Made by a program: the position numbers and the translations under genes. Below the pieces are notes generated by a model that saw only the letters and a list, made by a program, of their open reading frames with translations, was not told the origin of the DNA and ran no database searches. Of a stretch of 37,334 nt of DNA, positions 14,637-31,260 are shown in pieces. The stretch is from IMG/VR virus record IMGVR_UViG_3300043331_000274, positions 1 to 37,334 of that record. The stretch is one strand, 5' to 3'. The first letter of the stretch is position 1, and each line of letters opens with the position of its first letter. Origin of the DNA: a virus.

Positions 14637-15097
14637 TGGCCACCGTCACCTCGGGCCGCGGCAAGTCCACGGTCAGCGTCGACGTCGAGCTTCGGGGCTT
14701 CTTCTTCCAGGGCAACCCGCAGGGCCGCCTACGGAAGAACACCTACACCGTCCTGCGCGATGAGGGCGAGGTGGCGGTCCGCGCCGCGGCCGATCTTCTC
14801 CGCGGTCGCCAGCGGCAGACCGGCGGCGGCTACCCCGACATCGTCCTCGCCGACGAGATGCGCGCCGTCCCGATGCGGATGCGGTCCGGCCGGGCGCGGC
14901 TCGTGGTCAGCGCCAGCTACGGCTCCCACCCTCTGGTCCGCAAGTACAACCGCTGGGCGGAGGATGCCAGCACCGCCCGCCCGCGAGGCGGCTTCCGCGG
15001 CCACCACATGTACCGCGAGGCCGCACGCCTTACCCAATCCCACATCGACTCCCGCATCGGCGCAATCGCCGCGAAGCTCACGGAAGGACTGACGTAG
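14636..15097 (+). CDS. HK97 gp10-like neck/tail protein
   Basis: 153 residues from ATG 14636. An N-terminal beta part (VSVDVELRGFFF) is followed by a basic helical region (YTVLRDEGEVAVRAAADLLR) and a basic strand pair (MRSGRARLVVSASYGSHP), as in gp10-like head-tail joining proteins. The 3' end overlaps the 3' end of the opposite-strand HNH gene by 20 bases. Confidence 0.65.
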   Translation: MATVTSGRGKSTVSVDVELRGFFFQGNPQGRLRKNTYTVLRDEGEVAVRAAADLLRGRQRQTGGGYPDIVLADEMRAVPMRMRSGRARLVVSASYGSHPLVRKYNRWAEDASTARPRGGFRGHHMYREAARLTQSHIDSRIGAIAAKLTEGLT

Positions 15098-25266: not shown

Positions 25267-25574
25267 CTACCTCGCGTGTCTTGACCGCCATCCCCTACGG
25301 CGAGCACGAGGCGATCACCTACGCCGAGCTCGCGGCCCGCACCGGGTTGCCCCGGAGAGCCTGTGAGAAGGCCGTGGAGGGCCTGCGGGCGGCCGGGGCG
25401 CCGATCTGTACCGGCAACGCCGGCCTGTGGCGCACGACCGATCCTGACGAGCTGCTGGAGCACTACCGCCGCCTCCGCTCACGGGCGCTCCACCAGCTCG
25501 CCAACCTGCGGGCCATGCAGCGCACGGCCGAGCGGCTGCGGACGCCCCTGACGCTGTGGGATCGGGTGGCATGA
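25263..25574 (+). CDS. Winged-helix DNA-binding protein
   Basis: 103 residues from GTG 25263. A winged helix is clear: ITYAELAARTGLPRRACEKA, VEGLRAAGAPICTGNAGLWR, followed by a coiled-coil helix (LEHYRRLRSRALHQLANLRA). Such proteins occur as small regulators in phage early operons. The stop overlaps the methyltransferase ATG. Confidence 0.65.
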   Translation: MTTSRVLTAIPYGEHEAITYAELAARTGLPRRACEKAVEGLRAAGAPICTGNAGLWRTTDPDELLEHYRRLRSRALHQLANLRAMQRTAERLRTPLTLWDRVA

Positions 25575-26785
25575 GCCCCGCCTACGCCGACGACTGGCTG
25601 ACGATCTACGGCGGCGACGCCCGCGCCGTGCTGCCGACGCTGGCCGCCGAGAGCGTGGACTGCATCGTGACCAGCCCGCCCTACTGGGGGCTGCGGGACT
25701 ACGGGACCGCGACATGGCTCGGTGGGGATGCGGACTGCTCTCACCGCGTCGGCGGCCAGGTGCAGGACTCCAAGTGGCAGGGCGCGATTACTACCGGGCA
25801 GCGCCCCGGCGTGAACGCCTCCCGGTGTGTGACGTGCGGTGCCACCCGCCAAGACGCGCAGCTCGGCCTCGAACCCACGCCCGAGGAGTACGTCGCCAAC
25901 CTCGTCGGCGTGTTCCGCGAACTGCGGCGGGTGCTCAAGCCGACGGGCACGGCGTGGCTGAACCTCGGGGATAGTTACGCCTCGAACGGCGTCTACATCG
26001 GCGACTACAAGAAACGCCACCCCGACCACGTTGACCTTCACACCGCTAACAGCGACCGCTACCCGCAGGCCCGCAAGGGCCCACGCGGTGGCGAGTACCG
26101 TATCAAGGCGAAGGATTTGATCGGCATCCCATGGCGCGTGGCGATCGCGCTCCAAACCGACGGCTGGTGGCTCCGCAGCGACATCATCTGGTCCAAGCCG
26201 AACCCGATGCCGGAGTCCGTCACCGACCGCCCGACGAAGGCCCACGAGTACCTGTTTCTGCTGACGAAGGCGGAAAGGTATTTCTTCGACCAGGAGGCGG
26301 TGCGGGAGGCGGACGCGGGCTACGCCAGCGGCAACGGCTTCAACGGACGACAGGGTGGAGCTCGGCAGACGGCCGTGGATGGCGGGCACGGCTCGGCTGA
26401 ACGATTCACGCCGGGAGCTGGTCGCAACATCCGCTCGGTGTGGACCATCGCCACCCGCCCGTACCCCGGCGCCCACTTCGCCGTGTTCCCGCCGGAACTG
26501 CCAGAGCGGTGCATCAAGGCGGGGAGCAGCGAGCGCGGCGTCTGTCCGGCGTGTGGTGCGCCGTGGGTGCGGATGGTGGAGCGGACGAACACGGCGGGCT
26601 GGCAGCCGTCCTGCGCCCACGACGCGCCGCCTCAGCCCGCTGTCATCCTCGACCCCTTCGCCGGAAGCGGCACCGTCGGCCTCGTCGCCAACCGCCTGAG
26701 CCGCCGGGCCATCCTGATCGACCTGAACCCGGAGTACCTGCGTCAGCAGATGGCGCGCAACGCGCAAGTGCCGGTGGGACTGTGA
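25571..26785 (+). CDS. Orphan DNA N4-cytosine/N6-adenine methyltransferase (beta-type order)
   Basis: 404 residues from ATG 25571. The catalytic motif IV is SPPYW (residues 35-39) and the AdoMet-binding motif I is DPFAGSGT (from 361), so the order is IV before I as in beta-class enzymes. Two Cys pairs (CVTCG; CPACG) may bind zinc in the target recognition part. The central segments GTAWLNLGDSYA and RSDIIWSKPNPMPESV are typical. No restriction enzyme is nearby, so it probably protects phage DNA from host restriction or marks its own genome. The target base and site cannot be read from the sequence. Confidence 0.88.
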   Translation: MSPAYADDWLTIYGGDARAVLPTLAAESVDCIVTSPPYWGLRDYGTATWLGGDADCSHRVGGQVQDSKWQGAITTGQRPGVNASRCVTCGATRQDAQLGLEPTPEEYVANLVGVFRELRRVLKPTGTAWLNLGDSYASNGVYIGDYKKRHPDHVDLHTANSDRYPQARKGPRGGEYRIKAKDLIGIPWRVAIALQTDGWWLRSDIIWSKPNPMPESVTDRPTKAHEYLFLLTKAERYFFDQEAVREADAGYASGNGFNGRQGGARQTAVDGGHGSAERFTPGAGRNIRSVWTIATRPYPGAHFAVFPPELPERCIKAGSSERGVCPACGAPWVRMVERTNTAGWQPSCAHDAPPQPAVILDPFAGSGTVGLVANRLSRRAILIDLNPEYLRQQMARNAQVPVGL

Positions 26786-29238: not shown

Positions 29239-29765
29239 GGCGACGGAAGAACATCACCCCTCAGATCTACGAGGTATGTCGCCTGTTCGTTGGAGGTCAC
29301 AGTCAGGGGGAAATCGCTACCATCCTTGCCCGAACGCCGAATGCAGTTCGGCTCGCCCTTCGGGATGCCCGGAGCATCCTTGGTGGCGCCGACTACCTAC
29401 AAGCGGCGCGCAACGCTGTGGTCGTCGGGGTGCAACCGACGAGATTTGGCTATTCGCCTGAGAACCCAACAGAGCGGTTTTGGCGGAAGGTCCGAAAGGG
29501 CGAGGAGTGCTGGGAATGGACGGGGTTCCGTGTTCCCCCGCTTGGCTATGGTCGCTTCCGTCTGAATGACGAGCAGACGTGGGCGCATCGGGTGTCCTGG
29601 GAACTCACTTTCGGGCCGATCCCTGAGGGGCTTCAGGTCTGCCATCGTTGCGATAACCCACCCTGCGTTCGACCGGACCATCTGTTCCTCGGGACACCCC
29701 TCGATAACGTCCGAGACATGATTGGGAAGGGCCGCGCGTCCTTCCAGAAGCGAGCTAGTTTGTGA
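29235..29765 (+). CDS. HNH endonuclease with N-terminal HTH
   Basis: 176 residues from GTG 29235. Residues 10-50 form an HTH (YEVCRLFVGGHSQGEIATIL, then ARTPNAVRLALRD). The HNH core follows: ECWEWTGFRVPPLGYGRFRL, AHRVSWELTFGPIPEGLQVC, HRCDNPPCVRPDHLFLGT, then the DNVRDMIGKGR tail typical of this homing type. Less GC-rich than its neighbours. It overlaps both flanking genes by four bases, which is neat for a mobile gene and suggests a recent, precise insertion or selection for coupling. Confidence 0.85.
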   Translation: MRRRKNITPQIYEVCRLFVGGHSQGEIATILARTPNAVRLALRDARSILGGADYLQAARNAVVVGVQPTRFGYSPENPTERFWRKVRKGEECWEWTGFRVPPLGYGRFRLNDEQTWAHRVSWELTFGPIPEGLQVCHRCDNPPCVRPDHLFLGTPLDNVRDMIGKGRASFQKRASL

Positions 29766-30145
29766 ACAGGCTCGCCTACCGCGTCAACGAGGTGGCCGAG
29801 CTGTTGGCCGTAGACGCTGAGACCGTCCGTCGGTGGCTCGTCGCTGGTCGCCTTCCCGGTCGAAAGGTCGGCGGCCTGTGGCTGGTCCCCGCGTCGGGGT
29901 TGGAGGCGTGGCTAACATCGGAGGATGAGCAGGCGGATGGCGGGATCGGGCTCGGTGTACCGGGAGCGGGGGCAATGGGTGGCGCAACTGTCGGTCGGGC
30001 CGAGGGGCCAGCGCCGCTACATCCGTCGAACGCGAGCCACACGGCGCGACGCCCTGGCCGCCCTCGCCGAGCTGCGCGCCGCGCGAACGCGCACCTCGCC
30101 GACCAGGCTGACCCTTGGAGCCTACCTCGCCGAGTGGGTGGCTAG
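29762..30145 (+). CDS. Excisionase-family HTH protein (Xis-like)
   Basis: Domain in residues 1-60 from GTG 29762: LAYRVNEVAELLAVDAETVR, RWLVAGRLPGRKVGGLWLVP, then SGLEAWL, the MerR-like fold of phage excisionases. The frame stays open for another 65 low-complexity residues across the start of the integrase gene; those may be translated or not, as the codon pattern there is set by the integrase. Directly upstream of the integrase, as in many temperate phages. Confidence 0.75.
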   Translation: MNRLAYRVNEVAELLAVDAETVRRWLVAGRLPGRKVGGLWLVPASGLEAWLTSEDEQADGGIGLGVPGAGAMGGATVGRAEGPAPLHPSNASHTARRPGRPRRAARRANAHLADQADPWSLPRRVGG

Positions 30146-31055
30146 CGTGCGGAACCTTCGACCCGAGACCCTCCGCGGCTACCGCAACGCCATCCGCGAC
30201 CACGTGATCCCGACCATCGGGGACGTTCGGCTGGTCGACCTGGCACCCTCCGACGTCGAGCGGATGCTGACCGTCACCAGCGGGCGCATCGGCCCGAAGT
30301 CCCTCCGCAACATCCACGCCGTTCTGCGCCGCGCGCTGACGATGGCCGTCCGGCAGGGCCTCGTCACCCGCAACGTGGCCGCCCGTGAGTTCGTCGACCC
30401 GCCCCGCGTCCCAGCCTCCGAGCCGCGGGCGTTGAGCGCCGACGAGGTGCGCCGGTTGCTCGACGAGGCGAAGGGCGACCGGCTCGAAGCCCTGTTCGTC
30501 ACGGCGGTCGGCACCGGGCTCCGCCAGGGCGAGCTGCTCGGTTTGGCTTGGGAGGACGTCGACCTCGACGTGGGCCGGATCTCGGTCCGTCGTGAGCTGG
30601 TTCGGCGCGAAGGCCGCTACCAGCGCGACGAGCTCAAGACGCCGCAGTCGCGGCGGGCGGTGCCCCTGCCGCCGGCGGTTGTCGACGCCCTGATCGCCCA
30701 CCGAGGGCGCGTCATCGTCGAAGGCTTCTTGCCGACGGCCACCGGCCCGGTTTTCACCAACGCCAAGGGCGAGCCGTTGAGCGGGTCATGGGTGACCCAC
30801 CACTTCTACCGCCTGCTCAACCGGGCCAGCATCGAGCGCATGGCGTTCCACCGGCTGCGTGCGACGTACAGCTCGCGCCTGGCCGAGGCTGGGGTCAGCG
30901 ATCTCGACATCGCTCGGCTCCTCGGCCACAGTCGCACCCACACCGCCAAGAAGCACTACATCGCTCCCGGCCCCATTCCGGCCTCCGGGCTGGAGGCCGT
31001 CCAGATGCTCCTCGTGCCAACGGGTCACCAACGGGTCACGGTGCTGTCGGAATGA
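29925..31055 (+). CDS. int: Tyrosine recombinase integrase
   Basis: 376 residues. Catalytic residues are visible: R200 in GTGLRQGELLGL, H309-x-x-R312 in FHRLRATYSS, H335 in LLGHSRTHT and Y345 in KKHYIAP. The N-terminal arm-binding (GSGSVYRERGQWVAQLSVG) and core-binding (TLGAYLAEWVASVRNLRPET) domains are present. ATG 29925 directly abuts GGAGG; ATG 29937 (MAGSGSVY) is 12 bases beyond it and may be the true start. The 3' end contains two of the arm-type repeats of attP. It integrates the phage into a host tRNA-Arg(TCG) gene. Confidence 0.93.
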   Translation: MSRRMAGSGSVYRERGQWVAQLSVGPRGQRRYIRRTRATRRDALAALAELRAARTRTSPTRLTLGAYLAEWVASVRNLRPETLRGYRNAIRDHVIPTIGDVRLVDLAPSDVERMLTVTSGRIGPKSLRNIHAVLRRALTMAVRQGLVTRNVAAREFVDPPRVPASEPRALSADEVRRLLDEAKGDRLEALFVTAVGTGLRQGELLGLAWEDVDLDVGRISVRRELVRREGRYQRDELKTPQSRRAVPLPPAVVDALIAHRGRVIVEGFLPTATGPVFTNAKGEPLSGSWVTHHFYRLLNRASIERMAFHRLRATYSSRLAEAGVSDLDIARLLGHSRTHTAKKHYIAPGPIPASGLEAVQMLLVPTGHQRVTVLSE

Positions 31056-31184
31056 GTGGGCAGGACGGGGCCAATCGTGCTCAGAAGTGGCGCGCCGGGC
31101 AGGATTCGAACCCGCGGCCTGGTGGTCCGAAGCCACCTGACTTCGAGCTCAATCGGCACGGAAACGGGTCACCGAACGGGTCAC
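31019..31184. other. attP: tRNA-Arg core flanked by two pairs of AACGGGTCAC repeats
   Basis: The repeat AACGGGTCAC is at 31019-31028, 31030-31039, 31163-31172 and 31175-31184, all in the same orientation, 11 and 12 bases apart within pairs (one helix turn). The core between them (31088-31137) is the 3' half of a tRNA-Arg gene. This is the usual plan of a tyrosine-recombinase attP, with arm sites on both sides of the crossover core. Confidence 0.8.
31088..31137 (-). tRNA. 3' half of a tRNA-Arg(TCG) gene, the att core
   Basis: Read on the minus strand: anticodon stem GGTGG/CCACC with loop CTTCGGA (anticodon TCG), variable AGGCC, T arm GCGGG-TTCGAAT-CCTGC, acceptor strand CCGGCGC, G and CCA. 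There is no D arm and no matching 5' acceptor strand (GCGCCGG) nearby, so it is not a working tRNA but the piece that restores the host gene after integration. Confidence 0.85.
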
Positions 31185-31260
31185 GCTACCCCCATTGGCC
31201 CGCTGACCGCCTGACCTTCCTCATGGTCGCCGTGTGGTGGCCCGAGTCGAGGACGCGGCG

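Follow-up and report, generated by a model that had tools for sequence, protein, structure and literature searches.

A tRNA-Arg(TCG) half between paired repeats as the probable attP of a temperate siphophage with a predicted host lineage related to Thermomicrobiales

The window, a linear IMG/VR record of 37,334 nucleotides, very probably carries at 31019–31184 the attP of a temperate siphophage that targets the tRNA-Arg(TCG) gene of a host of the class of genome G811; integrase binding, crossover point, excision factor and host are predicted elements of this reading. This yields a host and an insertion site that can be tested, for a phage known from its sequence alone. The features are listed in Table 1.

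Table 1. Features of the attachment region in the window
Feature	Position	Strand	Remarks
HTH_17 (excisionase-type helix-turn-helix) ORF, candidate directionality factor	29762..30145	+	Pfam PF12728 9.6e-13, residues 6–53
int, tyrosine integrase, 376 aa	29925..31055	+	Pfam PF00589 5.7e-24; PHROG integrase 2.1e-63
Arm pair 1, AACGGGTCAC twice, 11 apart	31019..31039	+	within the last codons of int
CTGAGCACGA, host-lineage tRNA 3′-trailer motif, 3 nt after CCA	31075..31084	−	shared with tRNAs of the order of G811
Common core, tRNA-Arg(TCG) 3′ half, anticodon stem to CCA	31088..31137	−	50/50 with the G811 gene
Anticodon loop CTTCGGA, predicted overlap (crossover) region	31126..31132	−	edges of identity in L157 and G843:C84
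Arm pair 2, AACGGGTCAC twice, 12 apart	31163..31184	+	exact copies, shuffle control

Core and arm-type repeats

The core comprises 50 bases, from the anticodon arm through CCA of a tRNA-Arg(TCG). The 76-bp tRNA-Arg(TCG) gene of G811 matches it at 50 of 50 positions, and the identity ends at both edges. The sequence-only reading of this DNA had proposed an attP with such a 3′ half, CCA included, between two repeat pairs, and the exact match to a real gene bears this out. ARAGORN and Rfam both call a full-length tRNA at 31088/31091–31159, the latter with 30.1 bits at a cut-off of 29. The call is not meaningful: the same core also gave an arginine call with shuffled flanks (223/1000) or random phage flanks (352/1000), so only the 3′ half is supported. 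These controls bear on a rival explanation, in which the phage would carry a whole tRNA gene of its own, either for translation or to rescue a host tRNA disrupted by integration. Apart from the two program calls, the evidence is against it. The 5′ part of the called tRNA does not resemble the 5′ half of the G811 gene, no tRNA was called in the corresponding regions of the viral loci L157–L162, and ARAGORN detected no second tRNA gene in the window. In tRNA-dependent lysogeny, the host tRNA is broken at a common core of about 10 bp, and the phage has its own tRNA gene apart from this core (PMC10865867); the window has a 50-bp core and no other tRNA. A complete phage tRNA is thus extremely improbable.

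Four exact copies of AACGGGTCAC are located on the plus strand (31019–31028, 31030–31039, 31163–31172 and 31175–31184), with start-to-start distances of 11 in pair 1 and 12 in pair 2. They are the only four matches in the whole window with up to one mismatch allowed. Isolated near-copies are not unusual, as shuffles average 3.1 matches with one mismatch, but four exact copies within 166 bp are rare. The quartet score of 10 was reached by none of 2000 dinucleotide shuffles (best 5) and by none of the 119 other 600-nt windows of the same phage (best 4). The quartet in two helix-turn pairs is beyond chance. The positions, spacings and placement on both sides of the core are as claimed earlier, including the location of one pair in the final codons of int: pair 1 is coding DNA, part of int ...VPTGHQRVTVLSE. 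Exact core and arm-pair patterns had no matches in the viral contigs searched.

Integrase

The integrase consists of an N-terminal sheet-and-helix domain (residues 1–53), a core-binding domain and a catalytic domain. The catalytic residues are R200, K238, H309, R312, H335 and Y345. Among 16 integrases, K238 is conserved in at least 90% and the other five are invariant, which completes the R-K-H-R-H-Y set. In an AlphaFold2 model (ma212b5ae97dc), strands at 9–14, 17–25 and 28–34 and a helix at 37–53 form what is predicted to be a separate domain of the arm-binding type; the pLDDT is only 54–81 there (blocks of ten). Foldseek identified the Tn1549 integrase and lambda Int as structural neighbours of the model, and phmmer also matches lambda Int. 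Catalytic residues and domain order are as in lambda Int; the lambda attachment site is not known to involve a tRNA gene, and its arm arrangement differs from that of the window. The HTH_17 ORF adjoins int upstream, its tail overlapping int in another frame. Its product is probably the excision factor.

Viral relatives

The useful relatives came from a terminase scan and not from the integrase scan. A single-sequence integrase scan of the viral and genome collections yielded 24–37% identity over long stretches and up to 66% over short ones alone. With the terminase, 48 viral loci were found, and 8 of the 48 records had an integrase match. L157 is the closest relative, with an integrase identity of about 70%. 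It retains the core, the arm positions and the spacings (AACGNGTCAC): arm pair 1 is AACGTGTCAC/AACGGGTCAC, 11 apart, and arm pair 2 is AACGTGTCAC/AACGAGTCAC, 12 apart. Its core equals the window core except at the edge of the anticodon stem, and its identity to G811 runs on a few bases past CCA; the other flanks have diverged. About 1.9 kb of other sequence is located between int and attP of L157 (2272–4133). In the L157 integrase (G399; 1620–1840), about 60 residues are inserted in frame into the catalytic domain, and the inserted DNA contains a second small ORF in another frame. A broken integrase was considered and ruled out, as the translation is an open frame through the insert.

Three further loci have the same attP plan with other arm sequences: L158 with a tRNA-Arg(GCG) half, L159 with a tRNA-Thr(CGT) half (both anticodons read by eye) and L160 with its own arm pairs and a core without a recognisable tRNA. 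The phage of L103 and L160 (G401) was compared with 29.8–31.3 kb of the window. Its terminase is 96% identical, but the integrase only 38%, and arm sites and core differ. In this pair the integration module has been swapped as a unit. A full quartet near the integrase stop is absent in L157, L161, L162 and every cellular locus examined. Integrated copies are expected to lack it, and so is L157, with its attP further away.

Integrated relatives

Related elements in the order of G811 were located at tRNA 3′ ends. On G843:C84, a 47-bp direct repeat (14938–14984 and 43069–43115) bounds a 28.1-kb element. The repeat is a tRNA-Cys sequence from the first base of the anticodon loop to three bases past CCA, with a complete tRNA at one end of the element and the 3′ half at the other. 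A ATAGGCTGTC pair with a spacing of 12 lies inside each end; one of the copies has a single mismatch. Few phage-like genes were found among the 10 ORFs scanned, so the element is better regarded as a related island than as a certain prophage. In G940, a relative integrase (40%) lies 175 bp from its own tRNA-Arg(TCG), with a TTTTGTTGTCA pair between them. An integrated relative with its own tandem pair thus occupies the predicted target gene; other relatives are at other tRNAs, as expected if integrases switch targets.

Tandem pairs were counted in 18 loci with an identified tRNA end; integrase loci without one were left out, and the CCA of L190 was set 12 nt off. Tandem runs of at least 8 at lag 11–13 within 330 nt of CCA were present at 15 of these 18 integrase-linked tRNAs, all but L157, L213 and L196. 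In 12 of the 18, the run was matched by at most 1 of 200 shuffles. The best run started 46–86 nt from CCA in 15 of all 18 loci and 5–7 nt from it in three. A count around the integrase stop (−80 to +800), made without shuffle control, gave an exact 8-base pair at lag 11 or 12 in 17 of 29 loci. It was absent in 12; L222 and L197 had no exact pair at all in this range. The relatives present one layout with varying arms and targets, a natural series for arm-site choice by the N-terminal domain. Behind one integrase remnant in G843 (L199, 2420–2680), two tandem pairs of the ATAAGGGTGCTT and GGGGTCAGATTG types are located about 210 nt apart, the second resembling the pair behind the integrase of L215. 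These are possibly stacked attachment sites.

The sequence-only reading had suggested that the repeats are integrase arm sites. The recurrence in relatives of paired repeats that flank the core and differ in sequence supports them as putative arm sites bound by the integrase. The rival explanation, operator or excision-factor sites, is very unlikely. Other proteins, too, can bind to tandem repeats with a spacing of one helical turn, and regulation is possible at the 3′ end of int, where pair 1 is located. Yet the pairs flank the core in attP and lie inside both ends of an integrated element, and in L160 the repeats change together with the integrase. The layout also equals that of the proposed arm sites in mycobacteriophages of Clusters J and K (PMC3706429, PMC3203893).

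As arm sites, both pairs would be bound by the N-terminal domain of the integrase, while the core-binding and catalytic domains would bind the core. Bridging of arms and core would form the intasome. Strand exchange would occur within the anticodon loop of the tRNA-Arg(TCG) gene in the host. The crossover is placed there because of the mismatch in the anticodon stem of L157 and the repeat edge in G843:C84. PMC4383910 names the anticodon loop as one of the usual sublocations of integration in tRNA genes. Integration would join the host 5′ half to the phage 3′ half, resulting in a complete tRNA next to int, and would leave the old host 3′ half next to arm pair 2 at the opposite end.

Host lineage

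The core search covered 395 genomes from the class that contains a Ferrithrix-titled MAG, 396 from the phylum of a Pseudonocardia genome and 350 from the phylum of a Thermomicrobiales MAG; these large searches scored just the two best candidates per genome. NCBI places Thermomicrobiales in Thermomicrobiota, and the phylum of Thermomicrobiales and G811 is named Chloroflexota in GTDB. In this phylum, 17 of the 350 genomes had a core match at E 1e-8 or better. A tRNA-Arg(TCG) was called in 11 of 12 fetched loci, all except L177. The other tRNA-Arg(TCG) genes of the phylum reach 42–46 of 50 positions in 8 of 8 compared, which makes the exact match in G811 informative. The earlier reading had held that the core predicts the attachment gene of the host, and the genome search did locate such a bacterial tRNA-Arg(TCG).

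A true host in Actinomycetota, with tRNA conservation alone behind the G811 match, is unlikely. It could be argued from the terminase matches among deposited phages, which are mostly to actinophages (best 33–37%), and from the wide matching of conserved tRNA 3′ halves (one Actinomycetota genome reaches 97% over 34 nt). The two actinobacterial groups had nothing comparable to the core among the scored candidates: the best matches were without a TCG anticodon arm and, where an overlapping tRNA was called, were other arginine or proline tRNAs. A terminase search limited to the class of G811 gave relatives of 53–58% over most of the protein. In this class, 7 of 177 genomes have terminase relatives (37–65% over matched stretches), and in the order of G811, 7 of 22 genomes have integrase relatives. 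Moreover, the trailer motif CTGAGCACGA of attP adjoins tRNAs of this order. The evidence points to a predicted host from the same class as G811, within an uncultured lineage that is related to Thermomicrobiales. Neither an integrase nor a terminase relative was detected in G811 itself at the thresholds used, so this genome documents the target site but not the phage. No integrated copy of the window phage was found in the genomes searched.

tRNA trailer

CTGAGCACGA occurs within a few bases after CCA in the window and in several relatives. The pattern is enriched in the order of G811, with 52 matches against 9 for the backward control (summed over 22 rows). Most matches are away from tRNAs: 34 of 53 places in the search of this order, and 27 of 30 in another count, the other three abutting CCA. 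A further recombination site was considered, since CTGAGCACGA recurs at integrase-linked tRNAs. This was rejected; the motif adjoins tRNAs without integrases too. There are 17 distinct tRNA-adjacent places in the order, 13 of them without an integrase match nearby, which identifies CTGAGCACGA as a host trailer motif. In each of five other folded trailers, CTGAGCACGA or one of its variants leads into a hairpin (z −2.05 to −4.66). The window trailer folded next to CCA gave no terminator hairpin (z +1.46). The phage carries a host-type trailer, and the window copy is without the hairpin.

CTGAGCACGA lies outside the block identical to G811. Tentatively, and with slightly more doubt than belief, this may mean that the phage replaces the 3′ half of the target tRNA together with its downstream control. 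Such a spacer would explain the distance of about 46–86 nt between CCA and the first arm pair in most relatives. If true, lineage-specific trailers could label the hosts of uncultured temperate phages.

Comparison with known systems

The region is very probably an attP for a tyrosine integrase of the lambda type, with the layout seen in Cluster J mycobacteriophages (PMC3706429). In the Cluster J phages Omega and BAKA, attP has a 44-bp core from a tRNA gene, and the left end of attB is in the anticodon loop. Shared with the window are the location of attP 3′ of a tyrosine integrase gene, the tRNA-derived core, paired direct repeats of 10 bp that flank it and an HTH gene upstream of int. The arms (TGCATACg/tPuPy), the target tRNA-Leu and the host Mycobacterium are different. 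The Cluster J core is about 100 bp beyond int (PMC3706429), whereas the window core starts 33 nt past the stop codon and pair 1 is inside int.

Cluster K1 (CrimD) also has two pairs of arm-type repeats, of 11 bp, flanking the core, and its arm sequences drift between close relatives (PMC3203893). A stem-loop terminator between core and arms is a feature of K1 and of several relatives, but not of the window. According to the same source, K1 differs by the tmRNA 3′ end as target, an attP 5′ of int and inverted P3/P4 sites. The attP design is already known from other phages; what is new is the predicted host lineage, an attB that matches exactly and a series of arm sequences across the family. 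Attachment-site studies on temperate phages of the class of G811 were not found among open-licence papers.

Phage genome

The gene content suggests a temperate siphophage. The window encodes a terminase, head protease, major head protein, head-tail adaptor, tail proteins and an endolysin, as well as exonucleases, a methyltransferase and a replication initiation protein. For the DNA methyltransferase (25556–26785), family matches cover the two ends separately, as if the middle holds a long insert. In an HNH endonuclease gene (29584–29699), 116 nt share 76.7% identity with Myxococcus phage Mx9, the sole DNA match of 29500–33000 among 50,697 phage records.
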